From positions 46,430-110,429 of the forward strand of contig WLKQ01000001.1 in the NCBI GenBank assembly GCA_009701185.1: a DNA stretch of 64,000 nucleotides. Direction: 5' to 3'. The position numbers were made by a program, and so were the translations under genes. The stretch's first letter is position 1. Every line of letters starts with the position of its first letter. Below the pieces are notes generated by a model that saw nothing but the letters and a program-made list of their open reading frames with translations, made no database searches and was not told where the DNA came from. Of the stretch, positions 39,981 through 51,464 are shown in pieces. This stretch comes from Actinomycetota bacterium. GTDB lineage: Bacteria > Actinomycetota > Actinomycetes > Nanopelagicales > Nanopelagicaceae.

Positions 39981-40739
39981 TTATCGTAGATGAATAATGT
40001 CTGCAGCCAGAACATGAACTCCATCAGCTAAGACCAACTCGCCACTGGGTGAGATTGATACAGCTGTACCGCTTTCAACTCTTCCATCGGGATAATGCAC
40101 TTCTACGCTCTGGCCAAGGGTTGCGCTGAAATCCCTATAAATTGCCTGGATGTGATCATTGCCTTGATCCCATGCCGTGAAGTTAGTTTCAAAGGTGTTA
40201 AGAAGATTTATTAAAAGTTCATTGCGAGAAATATTCACGGTGCCTTCAATTGCAAGCGAGGTAGCGTGAGGTACAGGTAGTTCACTCGACTGCATCCCTA
40301 CATTTATACCAATGCCAATAACTACACCGTCATTTACAACCTGGGCTATTAATCCAGAAATCTTTTTTTCATTTACTAAAATATCATTTGGCCACTTAAC
40401 GCGTGGATCCACTCCAGGCAAACTTTGTGCAACGCAAACCCCTGCGATTAAAGGAATCCAACCCCAATCATCTTTGTTTCTAGTTGGTCTAATATAAAAA
40501 GAACATAGCAGCGCAGTTCCTGGTGCAGCTTCAAAAGTTCGCGTGAGGCGTCCGCGTCCAGAACTTTGATAATCAGCGACCACAACATCACCGGCTTGCG
40601 CACTGCCACGTGTAACTAATTCAATGAGGTCACTCTGTGTTGAACTCGTGAGTTCGACCACGCTTACTCGCCAGTACTGCGTCAGCGATGCATTGATGGC
40701 TCGACTATCGAGTGCCGCTCTTAGCATTTCTATGTCCAC
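39981..40739 (-). CDS. birA: Biotin-protein ligase
   Basis: 252 residues; attaches biotin to the carrier domain of AccA encoded just across the divergent gap. SSGRGRLTRTFEAAPG is the biotinyl-AMP loop (GRGR), and WPNDILVNEKKISG is the second hallmark. No N-terminal helix-turn-helix, so it is not the repressor type. I place the start at GTG 40739, 7 nt after TACGGT; the track start lies inside accD on the other strand. Confidence 0.92.
   Translation of the reverse strand: MDIEMLRAALDSRAINASLTQYWRVSVVELTSSTQSDLIELVTRGSAQAGDVVVADYQSSGRGRLTRTFEAAPGTALLCSFYIRPTRNKDDWGWIPLIAGVCVAQSLPGVDPRVKWPNDILVNEKKISGLIAQVVNDGVVIGIGINVGMQSSELPVPHATSLAIEGTVNISRNELLINLLNTFETNFTAWDQGNDHIQAIYRDFSATLGQSVEVHYPDGRVESGTAVSISPSGELVLADGVHVLAADIIHLR
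39983..39988 (-). promoter_or_regulatory. -10 box of leaderless purK
   Basis: TACGAT lies 6 nt before the proposed purK GTG (39976), over the end of birA. It supports the GTG start choice. Confidence 0.4.
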
Positions 40740-40745
40740 GCCTAG

Positions 40746-40752
40746 TACCGTA
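40746..40752. promoter_or_regulatory. Symmetric overlapping -10 boxes, birA / accD
   Basis: The core TACCGTA reads TACCGT on the plus strand (40746-40751), 6 nt before the accD ATG, and TACGGT on the minus strand (40747-40752), 7 nt before the birA GTG. The whole gap is 18 bp. Both transcripts would be leaderless and compete for the same melted region. Confidence 0.55.
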
Positions 40753-40757
40753 GGGGT

Positions 40758-42329
40758 ATGAGTCGTAATCTGCATACAACTGCCGGAAAAATCGAAGATC
40801 TGCGCGCCCGTGTCGAAGAGGCGGTGCATGCCGGTTCAGCTCGCGCAGTGGAGAAGCAACATGCAAAAGGCAAACACACCGCCCGTGAGCGTATTGAGAT
40901 GCTGGTCGATGCCGATTCATTTACGGAGATTGATGAGTTTGCACGCCACCGATCAACGCAGTTCGGTATGGAAAAAAATCGACCTTATGGAGATGGTGTC
41001 GTTATTGGAACCGCAACAGTTGATGGCCGCCCGATAGCTTTGTATTCACAGGATTTTACGATCATGGGTGGTTCACTAGGTGAAGTGCATGCCGAAAAGA
41101 TTGTAAAGATTGCCGAGTTTGCACTAAAAAGTGGAATTCCATTAGTTGGCATCAATGATTCTGGTGGTGCGCGTATTCAAGAAGGTGTCGCTTCATTAGC
41201 TGGCTACGGAAAAATCTTTCGCTTAAACACTCGCTCTTCGGGGGTGATCCCGCAGATCTCTTTGATTCTTGGACCATGTGCAGGTGGCTCGGCTTACTCA
41301 CCTGCGCTCACAGATTTTACAGTGATGGTGAATGAAACATCACATATGTTTATTACAGGACCCGATGTGATCAAAACTGTCACGGGCGAAGAAGTCGAAA
41401 TGGAAGAGCTTGGTGGTGCGCGTACGCACAATACGCGAACAGGAAATTCCCATTACCTAGCTGAGAGTGAAGCTGACGCGATTGATTACGTAAAGGCTCT
41501 GCTTTCTTATTTGCCATCAAATAATATGGACAGCTCGCCTCATCTTCCACCTACGGAATCGTTAGATAAAAAAGCTAGTGACTTAGCCCTTGATGCATTA
41601 ATTCCTGATAGTCCAAATCAGCCATATGACATGAAGGTACTTATTCAAGCCCTTGTAGATGAGGGTGAATTTCTAGAAGTCCACGCTCTATATGCACCAA
41701 ATATCGTTGTAGGTTTTGCACGCATTGAAGGTGAATCGATTGGAATTATTGCCAATCAGCCTTCACAGCTTGCTGGCACATTAGATATTAACTCCAGCGA
41801 AAAAGCAGCGCGATTCTTGCGCTTCTGCGATGCATTCAATATTCCAATTTTAACGCTGGTGGATGTACCTGGATTCCTTCCAGGAACGGAGCAAGAGTGG
41901 GATGGAATTATTCGTCGTGGAGCGAAACTGCTCTATGCCTATGCGGAAGCATCTGTACCTCTTGTTACCTTAATTACTCGAAAAGCTTACGGTGGTGCCT
42001 TTATCGTGATGGGTTCAAAATATCTTGGCAGCGATATTAACTTTGCGTGGCCAAGTGCTGAAATTGCCGTAATGGGCGCTCAAGGTGCAGTCAATATTCT
42101 CTATCGTAAAGAGCTATCCGAAGCTAAAGATCCCGTTGCAAAGCGTGCAGAACTTGTTGATGAGTACAACGAATCTTTAGCAAATCCGTATCTTGCTGCC
42201 GAGCGTGGAACTATCGACACCGTAATTGAGCCTAATCAATCCCGTGCCTACATTACAAAAGCATTTAGAACCTTGCGAACCAAGCGAGATACCTTGCCTG
42301 CGCGCAAACATGGAAATATTCCTCTGTAA
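40758..42329 (+). CDS. accD: Acyl-CoA carboxylase carboxyltransferase (beta) subunit
   Basis: 523 residues, PccB/AccD5 type; transfers CO2 from carboxybiotin to acetyl- or propionyl-CoA. Two crotonase-fold halves are visible, with [15 protein letters not shown] and [16 protein letters not shown] in the first and [12 protein letters not shown] and [11 protein letters not shown] in the second, which line the acyl-CoA and biotin pockets. It overlaps accE by 1 nt. Substrate preference cannot be read from sequence by eye. Confidence 0.95.
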
Positions 42330-42505
42330 TGAAATACTCAATCGTGCGAGGAACTCCAACTGAAGAAGAACTTGTCGCGATTGAGCATGCAATGAAAATG
42401 CATAAAAGGCAGGAAATGGTGCCAATTATCCGTAAAAGTCTCTTTGGACGTCCACAACTTCGTCGGCCATTAAATCAACGTTTCCGCTTTGGAAACACAA
42501 AGTAA
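42329..42505 (+). CDS. accE: Acyl-CoA carboxylase epsilon subunit (missed by ORF track)
   Basis: 58 residues, too short for the track. SIVRGTPTEEELVAIEHAM is the epsilon-subunit hallmark; the tail FGRPQLRRPLNQRFRFG is basic. Epsilon stabilises the alpha-beta complex in Actinobacteria. Starts as TAATG with accD and ends 7 bp before maf. Confidence 0.92.
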   Translation: MKYSIVRGTPTEEELVAIEHAMKMHKRQEMVPIIRKSLFGRPQLRRPLNQRFRFGNTK

Positions 42506-42512
42506 TTTAGAC

Positions 42513-43115
42513 ATGCCAAAAATAATTTTAGCCTCTGCTTCCACATCTCGTCGTCGCTTACTTGAATCTGCCGGCTTGCCAATTTCAGTGATGGTGAGTC
42601 ACGTAGATGAAGAAACCGATTTTTTTAATTCGCTTCCTCCTGCCGACATGGTGATTGCACTCGCAATTACCAAGGCACATACAATCCGTGAGCAGATAGA
42701 TTTCCCAGCAATAATCATTGGCTGCGATTCTACTTTTGAGTTCGATGGACAATCTCTCGGAAAGCCAGGGATACCAGAGATAGCAGTTGAGCGCGCTAAG
42801 CGTGTTCAAGGAAAATCAGGGCTCTTGCACACAGGACATTGTGTGATTGATACGTCAAAGGATCGAGAAATCTCAAGTATTGTCACAACCAAAGTAAGTT
42901 TTGATGCAATGAGTGATGCCGAGATTGATGATTACGTGGCTAGTGGAGAACCGCTCCACGTCGCAGGCGGATTCACTCTTGATGGTTTTAGCTCACCATT
43001 CATTCCTCACATTGAAGGCGACTACACAAATGTTGTTGGGATCTCCATGCCATTCATCCGTAAAGCAATGGCCCAACTGGGTTATTCCTGGCCAGAAGTG
43101 AAGGTAATGCGATGA
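42513..43115 (+). CDS. maf: Maf family nucleotide pyrophosphatase
   Basis: 200 residues from ATG 42513 ([15 protein letters not shown] is the family N-terminus; the track adds eight codons overlapping accE). Catalytic motifs [10 protein letters not shown] and KPGIPEIA are present. Maf proteins remove non-canonical or modified NTPs and affect septation. It lies between accE and accA as in Mycobacterium, and overlaps accA by 4 nt. Confidence 0.93.
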
Positions 43116-44830
43116 AGTGCGTACTAATTGCTAACCGAGGCGAAATTGCAGTTCGAGTTATTCGTGCTTGCAGAGATCATGGTTTGGAATCAGTTGCTGT
43201 GTACTCTGATGAAGATCGCGACGCGCTACACACAACAATGGCCGACTCGGCATATTCTTTACATGGAACAAGTGCAACTCAGACATATCTAAACATCGAA
43301 AAACTTATTGACGTTGCCAAACAATCAGGTGCTGATGCAGTCCATCCGGGATATGGTTTTTTATCAGAAAACGCTAACTTTGCCCAAGCCGTAATTGATG
43401 CTGGTTTAATTTGGATAGGCCCACCACCTACTGCCATTCGTGCGCTTGGAGATAAAGTTTCAGCAAGAAAAATTGCTTCAAAAGCTGGCGCACCACTCGT
43501 CGCAGGAACTAAAGATCCAGTTGCCGGACATGCTGAAGTAACTGCATTTGCTAAGGAGCACGGTCTTCCTGTTGCGATTAAAGCGGCACATGGTGGAGGC
43601 GGACGTGGATTAAAAGTTGCACGCACCATGGAGGAGATTCCAGAACTCTTTGACTCTGCAGTACGTGAGGCGATATCTGGATTTGGGCGTGGAGAGTGTT
43701 TTGTTGAGCGTTATTTAGATAAGCCCCGACACGTAGAAACCCAAGTTCTTGTCGATATGCATGGACATGCAGTTGTGGTTAGTACCCGCGACTGCTCCCT
43801 ACAACGCCGCCATCAAAAGCTAGTCGAAGAAGCGCCTGCTCCCTTTTTAACCGATGCACAAAATGAAGAGCTCTATCGTTCTAGTAAAGCCATTATGAAA
43901 GAGGCGGGTTATATTGGTGCCGGAACGTGCGAATTTCTTATTGGCACAGATGGAACCATATCTTTCTTAGAAGTAAATACACGATTGCAAGTAGAGCACC
44001 CAGTCAGTGAAGAAGTTACCGGCATTGACTTGGTTCGCCAGCAATTCCGAATCGCTATGGGCGAATCACTTGGTTTTGATGATCCACTTATTCGAGGCCA
44101 CTCGATTGAATTTAGAATTAATGGTGAAGATCCAGGACGATCATTCCTGCCTGCACCTGGGCGCATTACAGGTTGGGTCATACCAACTGGCCCTGGAGTA
44201 AGAGTTGATGCTGGATTTAGAAATGGCGACACCATTGGTGGAAACTTTGATTCACTGCTCGCAAAACTTATTGTTACTGGAGCAACTCGCCAAGAAGCTA
44301 TAGAACGTGCACGGCGGGCCTTAGCTGAATTTACTATTGATGGTCTTGCTACTGCACTACCTTTTCACCAAGCCATTGTTGAAGATTCTGCATTTACAGA
44401 GCAATTTAAGGTCTATACGAGTTACATTGAAAATGAATTCGTTAATGAAATTCCTGCCTTTACTTTGACTGCGCCGGCCTTGCAGTCACACATGGCCCCT
44501 GAGCATCTGATTACTGAGGTCAATGGAAAGCGCTTCGAGATTCTGGTTCATGCGCCACAACCGATTGTTAAGCGCCATCGCGCTAAAGCCAGCATGACTG
44601 GTGCCTCTGGATCATCTGGCCTCACCAGCCCTATGCAAGGAACAGTGGTCAAGATTGCAGCAGAAGAAGGCACTCATGTTGAAGTCGGAGATTTAGTAAT
44701 TGTGCTCGAAGCTATGAAGATGGAGCAGCCTTTAATGGCGCATAGAGCAGGTGCAATAACTAATCTCACTGCAGTCATTGGTGCCACAGTTTCAAGTGGA
44801 ACCATTCTGTGTGACATTATTGATGCATGA
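43112..44830 (+). CDS. accA: Acyl-CoA carboxylase biotin-carboxylase/carrier (alpha) subunit
   Basis: 572 residues. Biotin carboxylase part: [15 protein letters not shown], the ATP lid [11 protein letters not shown], and [16 protein letters not shown] at the catalytic end; the last 75 residues are a biotin carrier with the biotinylated lysine in LEAMKMEQP. It uses ATP and bicarbonate to carboxylate biotin, supplied by BirA. Corresponds to AccA3. The stop overlaps the PNP start by 4 nt, tying fatty-acid carboxylation to the nucleoside genes. Confidence 0.95.
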
Positions 44831-51446: not shown

Positions 51447-51452
51447 ACCCGA

Positions 51453-51459
51453 TAGCCTA
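51453..51459. promoter_or_regulatory. Symmetric overlapping -10 boxes, nucleoside hydrolase / ribokinase
   Basis: The core TAGCCTA gives TAGCCT on the plus strand (51453-51458), 6 nt before the ribokinase ATG, and TAGGCT on the minus strand (51454-51459), 7 nt before the hydrolase ATG. A plus-strand TTGAAG lies 16 bp upstream (51431-51436). The gap is 18 bp; the layout is the same as at birA/accD. Confidence 0.55.
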
Positions 51460-51464
51460 GCGTC

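Follow-up and report, generated by a model that had tools for sequence, protein, structure and literature searches.

Genes flanking the 18-bp gap

How can two divergent genes both be transcribed when only 18 bp separate their start codons? The window analyzed here, a 64,000-nucleotide stretch of DNA from a member of the Nanopelagicaceae, contains such a case between birA and accD, where the entire intergenic region (40740–40757) reads GCCTAGTACCGTAGGGGT. The nearest named relatives of the source organism in a protein-based scan are genomes of freshwater actinobacteria, among them IMCC19121 and Candidatus Planktophila, which places it in the acI/Planktophila-like group. Comparative analysis of the locus makes it highly probable that these 18 bp constitute an entire bidirectional promoter for two leaderless transcripts, in which one −10 element would be read on either strand.

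The leftward gene, birA (39981–40739, minus strand), encodes a biotin-protein ligase that scores 148 bits against TIGR00121 (cut-off 83) and is predicted to be leaderless, with a GTG start codon at 40739–40737. Across relatives the position of this codon is occupied by either GTG or ATG, and the start codon of accD alternates likewise, which supports a birA start at 40739. An alternative ATG at 40727 was rejected because some members of the genus lack it and the codon at 40739 is kept as GTG or ATG. The only domain matches in the protein were BPL_LplA_LipB and BPL_C, and no helix-turn-helix domain was found; the autorepressor and operator arrangement of bifunctional BirA was rejected on this ground.

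The rightward gene (40758–42329, plus strand; ATG at 40758–40760) encodes a full-length accD5/pccB-like biotin-dependent carboxyltransferase (Carboxyl_trans match, 653 bits) and is likewise predicted to be leaderless. It is followed on the same strand by a 58-aa ORF overlapping its stop codon (42329–42505), then by a Maf-family gene and a biotin carboxylase-BCCP fusion of the AccA3 type (43112–44830) carrying the biotinylation motif EAMKM. The 58-aa ORF has no match among Pfam or NCBIfam models, and from its position it is a candidate for the acyl-CoA carboxylase epsilon subunit. The earlier note had paired the ligase with the enzyme subunit whose complex it biotinylates. The identity of BirA and its carboxylase partner held; AccD itself is not biotinylated, and to judge from the sequence the substrate of BirA is the BC-BCCP fusion encoded in the same rightward run. 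No carboxyltransferase match was found in the listed complete or near-complete genomes of the family genera g2, g14, and g17, which suggests that the biotin-dependent carboxylase has been lost from these whole genera.

A probable common −10 element for both strands

Within the gap, the symmetric core TACCGTA (40746–40752), an instance of TAxxxTA, is a near-palindrome whose reverse complement is TACGGTA. On the plus strand it supplies the putative −10 hexamer TACCGT for accD (40746–40751), followed by 6 nt and the ATG; on the minus strand it supplies TACGGT for birA (40747–40752, read from 40752 to 40747), followed by 7 nt and the GTG. This is where the earlier note had placed it, 6 to 7 nt from both start codons, and the coordinates are correct. 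With transcription starting at 40758 and 40740, the second and sixth bases of the core, A2 and T6, coincide in the reciprocal pairing of −7T with −11A, and the divergent start-site spacing predicted from the start codons is 18–19 bp. The base at −18 is T for birA, if its start is 40740, and G for accD (at 40740). T at this position is common, though not obligatory, at bidirectional promoters (PMC12825309, PMC10268837).

The Shine–Dalgarno context of accD is that of a leaderless gene: a GGGG is separated from the ATG by 1 nt, and relatives have CGCC, TGTT, TAGA, or other sequences in its place. AGGGG was accordingly dismissed as a Shine–Dalgarno site, being too near the ATG and unconserved in relatives. 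A −35/−10 consensus scan of the locus found no canonical sigma-70 promoter, as expected for actinobacteria. Within birA, the block CTTAGCA (40720–40726) precedes the accD −10 hexamer by 19 bp; relatives have CTTGGCG or CTTAACA, and the block shows fewer synonymous-site changes than neighboring sites. It is possibly a weak −35 element for accD with a 19-bp spacer, a reading that is confounded by the birA codons it overlaps. The claim that the gap is too small for repressor sites was too strong, as operators or −35 contacts could sit inside the coding ends.

Recurrence of putative doubly leaderless gene pairs

Leaderless promoters of Actinobacteria are described as TANNNT without a recognizable −35 element, with the transcription start site at the start codon (PMC3898074, PMC3160421). 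We looked for this pattern in two genomes, using 1100 starts from simple gene calls on 1.2 Mb of stretches of G132, a complete congener, and 1022 starts taken in from G143, a second genus. In G132, TANNNT stands 6 nt before 127 of the 1100 starts and 7 nt before 63, against a background of about 8 elsewhere; the corresponding counts for G143 are 101 and 46 of 1022. These peaks agree with the published leaderless promoters (PMC3160421, PMC3898074), and the two genome-wide favored distances are exactly the spacings of the TACCGTA core from accD (6 nt) and birA (7 nt).

Among 128 divergent gene pairs of G132, TANNNT occurs 6 or 7 nt from the start codon on both sides in 30 pairs within 300 bp and in 15 within 45 bp, while each of 63 other three-base motifs gave 0 cases within 45 bp. 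G143 has 26 such pairs within 300 bp and 13 within 45 bp; controls reached at most 1, with a mean of 0.016 against the 13. By these counts, both genes appear to be leaderless in about 20–23% of the divergent pairs of the two genomes. When reading-frame context was removed, the bare pattern CAY-N6-TANNNTA-N5-RTG was no more frequent than its reversed control in 148 class genomes. Motif counts alone were therefore dropped as evidence, and significance rests on gene context and conservation.

The short gaps fall into discrete sizes. Doubly leaderless gaps of up to 24 bp in G132 and G143 comprise six of 18 bp (four in G132, two in G143) and four of 22–24 bp (22, 23, 23, and 24), with none at 5–17 or 19–21 bp. 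The two hexamers overlap by five bases at 18 bp (giving TAxxxTA), by TA at 22–23 bp, and abut at 24 bp. At published bidirectional promoters, divergent start sites preferentially lie 18, 10, or 23 bp apart (PMC12825309), so that the two groups of gaps match the published 18- and 23-bp classes.

The four 18-bp pairs of G132 are crp-like/nth, mobA-like/metallophosphoesterase (the latter named by inspection), nucleoside hydrolase/ribokinase, and birA/accD. All four recur in the genome of the window as 24-bp sites (C1:87166, C1:97873, C3:6012, and C12:4338), the last being assigned because its sequence resembles that of the mobA-like site. One of them lies within the window itself: a second 18-bp gap (51447–51464; core 51453–51459), between a nucleoside hydrolase gene on the minus strand and a ribokinase gene on the plus strand, reads CAT-ACCCGA-TAGCCTA-GCGTC-ATG, the gene identities being taken from the G132 orthologs. 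The two encoded enzymes belong to one salvage route.

A broader proposal would be that in these streamlined, regulator-poor freshwater actinobacteria promoters of the fused, doubly leaderless kind make up a distinct quantized class (start-codon gaps of 18 and 22–24 bp), in which the choice of polymerase orientation itself balances paired genes such as birA/accD or nucleoside hydrolase/ribokinase. We put it forward as a speculation with a small chance of being right. It is improbable that the common melting site actually fixes the ratio of BirA to carboxylase, as the earlier note had proposed. The two genes are functionally paired, the carrier protein modified by BirA lies in the same rightward run, and in Mycobacterium tuberculosis birA and accD5 both respond to SigH (PMC4803200). 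However, those responses are unequal, at 6.4-fold for birA and 2.1-fold for accD5 (PMC4803200). At the bidirectional promoters tested in Escherichia coli, basal activity is too low for either direction to influence the other, and once one direction is strongly activated the opposite one is repressed (PMC12825309). A fixed ratio does not follow from directions that are independent when basal, compete when activated, and respond unequally to SigH. Moreover, the variant core TACCTTA alters both hexamers while the arrangement is kept, and the crp/nth and mobA-like/phosphoesterase pairs do not obviously require their products in a set proportion.

Conservation of the core and natural controls

The evidence for the common core comes from its conservation in the family and from a tree of accD. 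TAxxxTA stands exactly 5 nt before an ATG or GTG in 104 of 107 distinct family loci, which bears out the conservation among relatives that the earlier note had set as a check. Nine different middle triplets occur (CCG, CCT, CGG, CCC, GCG, ACC, TCG, ACG, and CTC). On the accD tree of 55 loci, the T, A, T, and A positions underwent 0 changes, against a mean of about three at each of the remaining 14 gap positions; the rows were anchored on the core, and rejected rows were truncated or had the core in another register, so this count is support rather than proof. The 18-bp common core is absent from the named loci of other orders (Streptomyces, Clavibacter, Micropruina, and others).

Some exceptions are instructive. 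In two g6 genomes (L257 and L258), birA keeps TACCGTA, and accD lies behind a leader of ~45 nt with the Shine–Dalgarno-like sequence GAGGGAG; translation of accD may have changed there from leaderless to led. The ~45-nt insert starts with ATGAATCGGGAAAAATCTCGTATAG or a similar sequence and ends in the Shine–Dalgarno-like site, and in one genome it may contain an 8-codon ORF. In one g8 genome (G204) the core has become TAAAGTG, which breaks the hexamer on the birA side although birA still adjoins.

The symmetry of TAxxxTA also permits a strand-specific test, since the first base, T1, is needed by the plus-strand gene only and the seventh, A7, by the minus-strand gene only. A7 is not the default: of 190 leaderless promoters of G132, 36 (about 19%) have A at base 7, and T, the commonest base, stands there in 97. 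The accD promoters of Enemella, Micropruina, and another propionibacterium, which look leaderless, carry G, C, and G, respectively, at this base. The crp/nth pair offers a natural control. Where its gap is 17–18 bp, A7 is present in 12 of 12 loci; in the sister genus, where the gap is 63–80 bp, base 7 is T or C in 9 of 9 (Fisher p = 3e-6, uncorrected for relatedness of the loci). A7 is thus kept at the short gap and replaced at the long one, exactly as a common −10 element predicts.

These data bear on a simpler reading, which we consider very improbable, namely that accD alone uses the site, that birA has its promoter within accD or at a distance, and that A7 is coincidental. A7 by itself does occur in 15–19% of leaderless promoters (G132 and G143), and the g8 genome shows that it can be absent with birA adjacent. 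However, essentially all other lineages of the family retain A7, 90 of the 104 distinct relatives that carry the core have a birA start codon (CAC or CAT on the plus strand) 6 nt to its left, and the crp/nth control behaves as the common-promoter model requires. The least probable reading is that the conserved GTACCGTA is a regulator's operator, instead of or besides a −10 element: conservation reaches one or two bases past the hexamers, with G at −13 and C at −10 invariant in the accD-tree set, but T, A, T, and A are constant around a variable central triplet, the other 18-bp pairs have different cores (TACTTTA, TAGTTTA, TAGCCTA, and TAGGATA) in unchanged geometry, and BirA is without a DNA-binding domain. 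The proposal that one 7-bp core provides the −10 element for both strands has good support from its geometry, its conservation, and the natural controls.

Predicted mechanism

From the observed anatomy, spacing, conservation, and natural controls of the putative bidirectional promoter, we infer both transcripts, their exact 5′ ends, and exclusion between polymerases. The housekeeping sigma factor would recognize TAxxxT on either strand of TACCGTA, with T1 serving accD only, A7 serving birA only, and A2 and T6 serving both. Steric exclusion between orientations is established for bidirectional promoters (PMC12825309), so RNA polymerase would load in one orientation at a time, melting the same seven base pairs. 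The accD transcript would start at or within 1 nt of the ATG at 40758 and the birA transcript at 40739 or 40740; both mRNAs would then be without a 5′ leader and would rely on leaderless initiation. The basal outputs in the two directions would be independent, and their ratio would not be fixed.

If so, the 18 bp that separate the two start codons, and contain nothing further, would be the shortest promoter region that is plausible for a gene pair. As T1 serves one gene and A7 the other, the published symmetry model can be tested by comparative genomics alone. A TAxxxTA core in an 18-bp gap also pins both starts and so constrains the annotation of gene starts in actinobacteria.

Comparison with known promoters

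The bidirectional promoter class itself is known. What looks new here, and sets the site apart from published examples (PMC12825309, PMC10268837), is that both products would be leaderless, with the promoter reaching from one start codon to the other, and that this form recurs. The word "leaderless" is absent from these two papers, and none of the literature searched links Planktophila with leaderless genes. There is a reservation as to novelty, in that divergent leaderless pairs have already been reported in M. tuberculosis (PMC3898074). Of the genes of that species whose primary start site has been mapped, about a quarter are leaderless, and the same study calls "closely juxtaposed divergent promoters" common (PMC3898074).

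The closest mycobacterial parallel is the M. tuberculosis pair Rv3279c/Rv3280 (birA/accD5), adjacent and divergent by locus names, in which both genes belong to the SigH regulon. Like the bidirectional promoters of Warman, Grainger, and colleagues (PMC12825309, PMC10268837), whose start sites lie 18 or 23 bp apart, the birA/accD site would have one −10 element for both strands, with reciprocal −7T and −11A and predicted start sites 18–19 bp apart. Unlike those promoters, which are from E. coli and Salmonella, its predicted start sites are the start codons, and the promoter is the entire intergenic region. With the leaderless promoters of Actinobacteria it shares TANNNT, the want of a recognizable −35 element, and a start codon at the predicted start site; unlike the usual ones, it would fuse two such promoters into one common hexamer.
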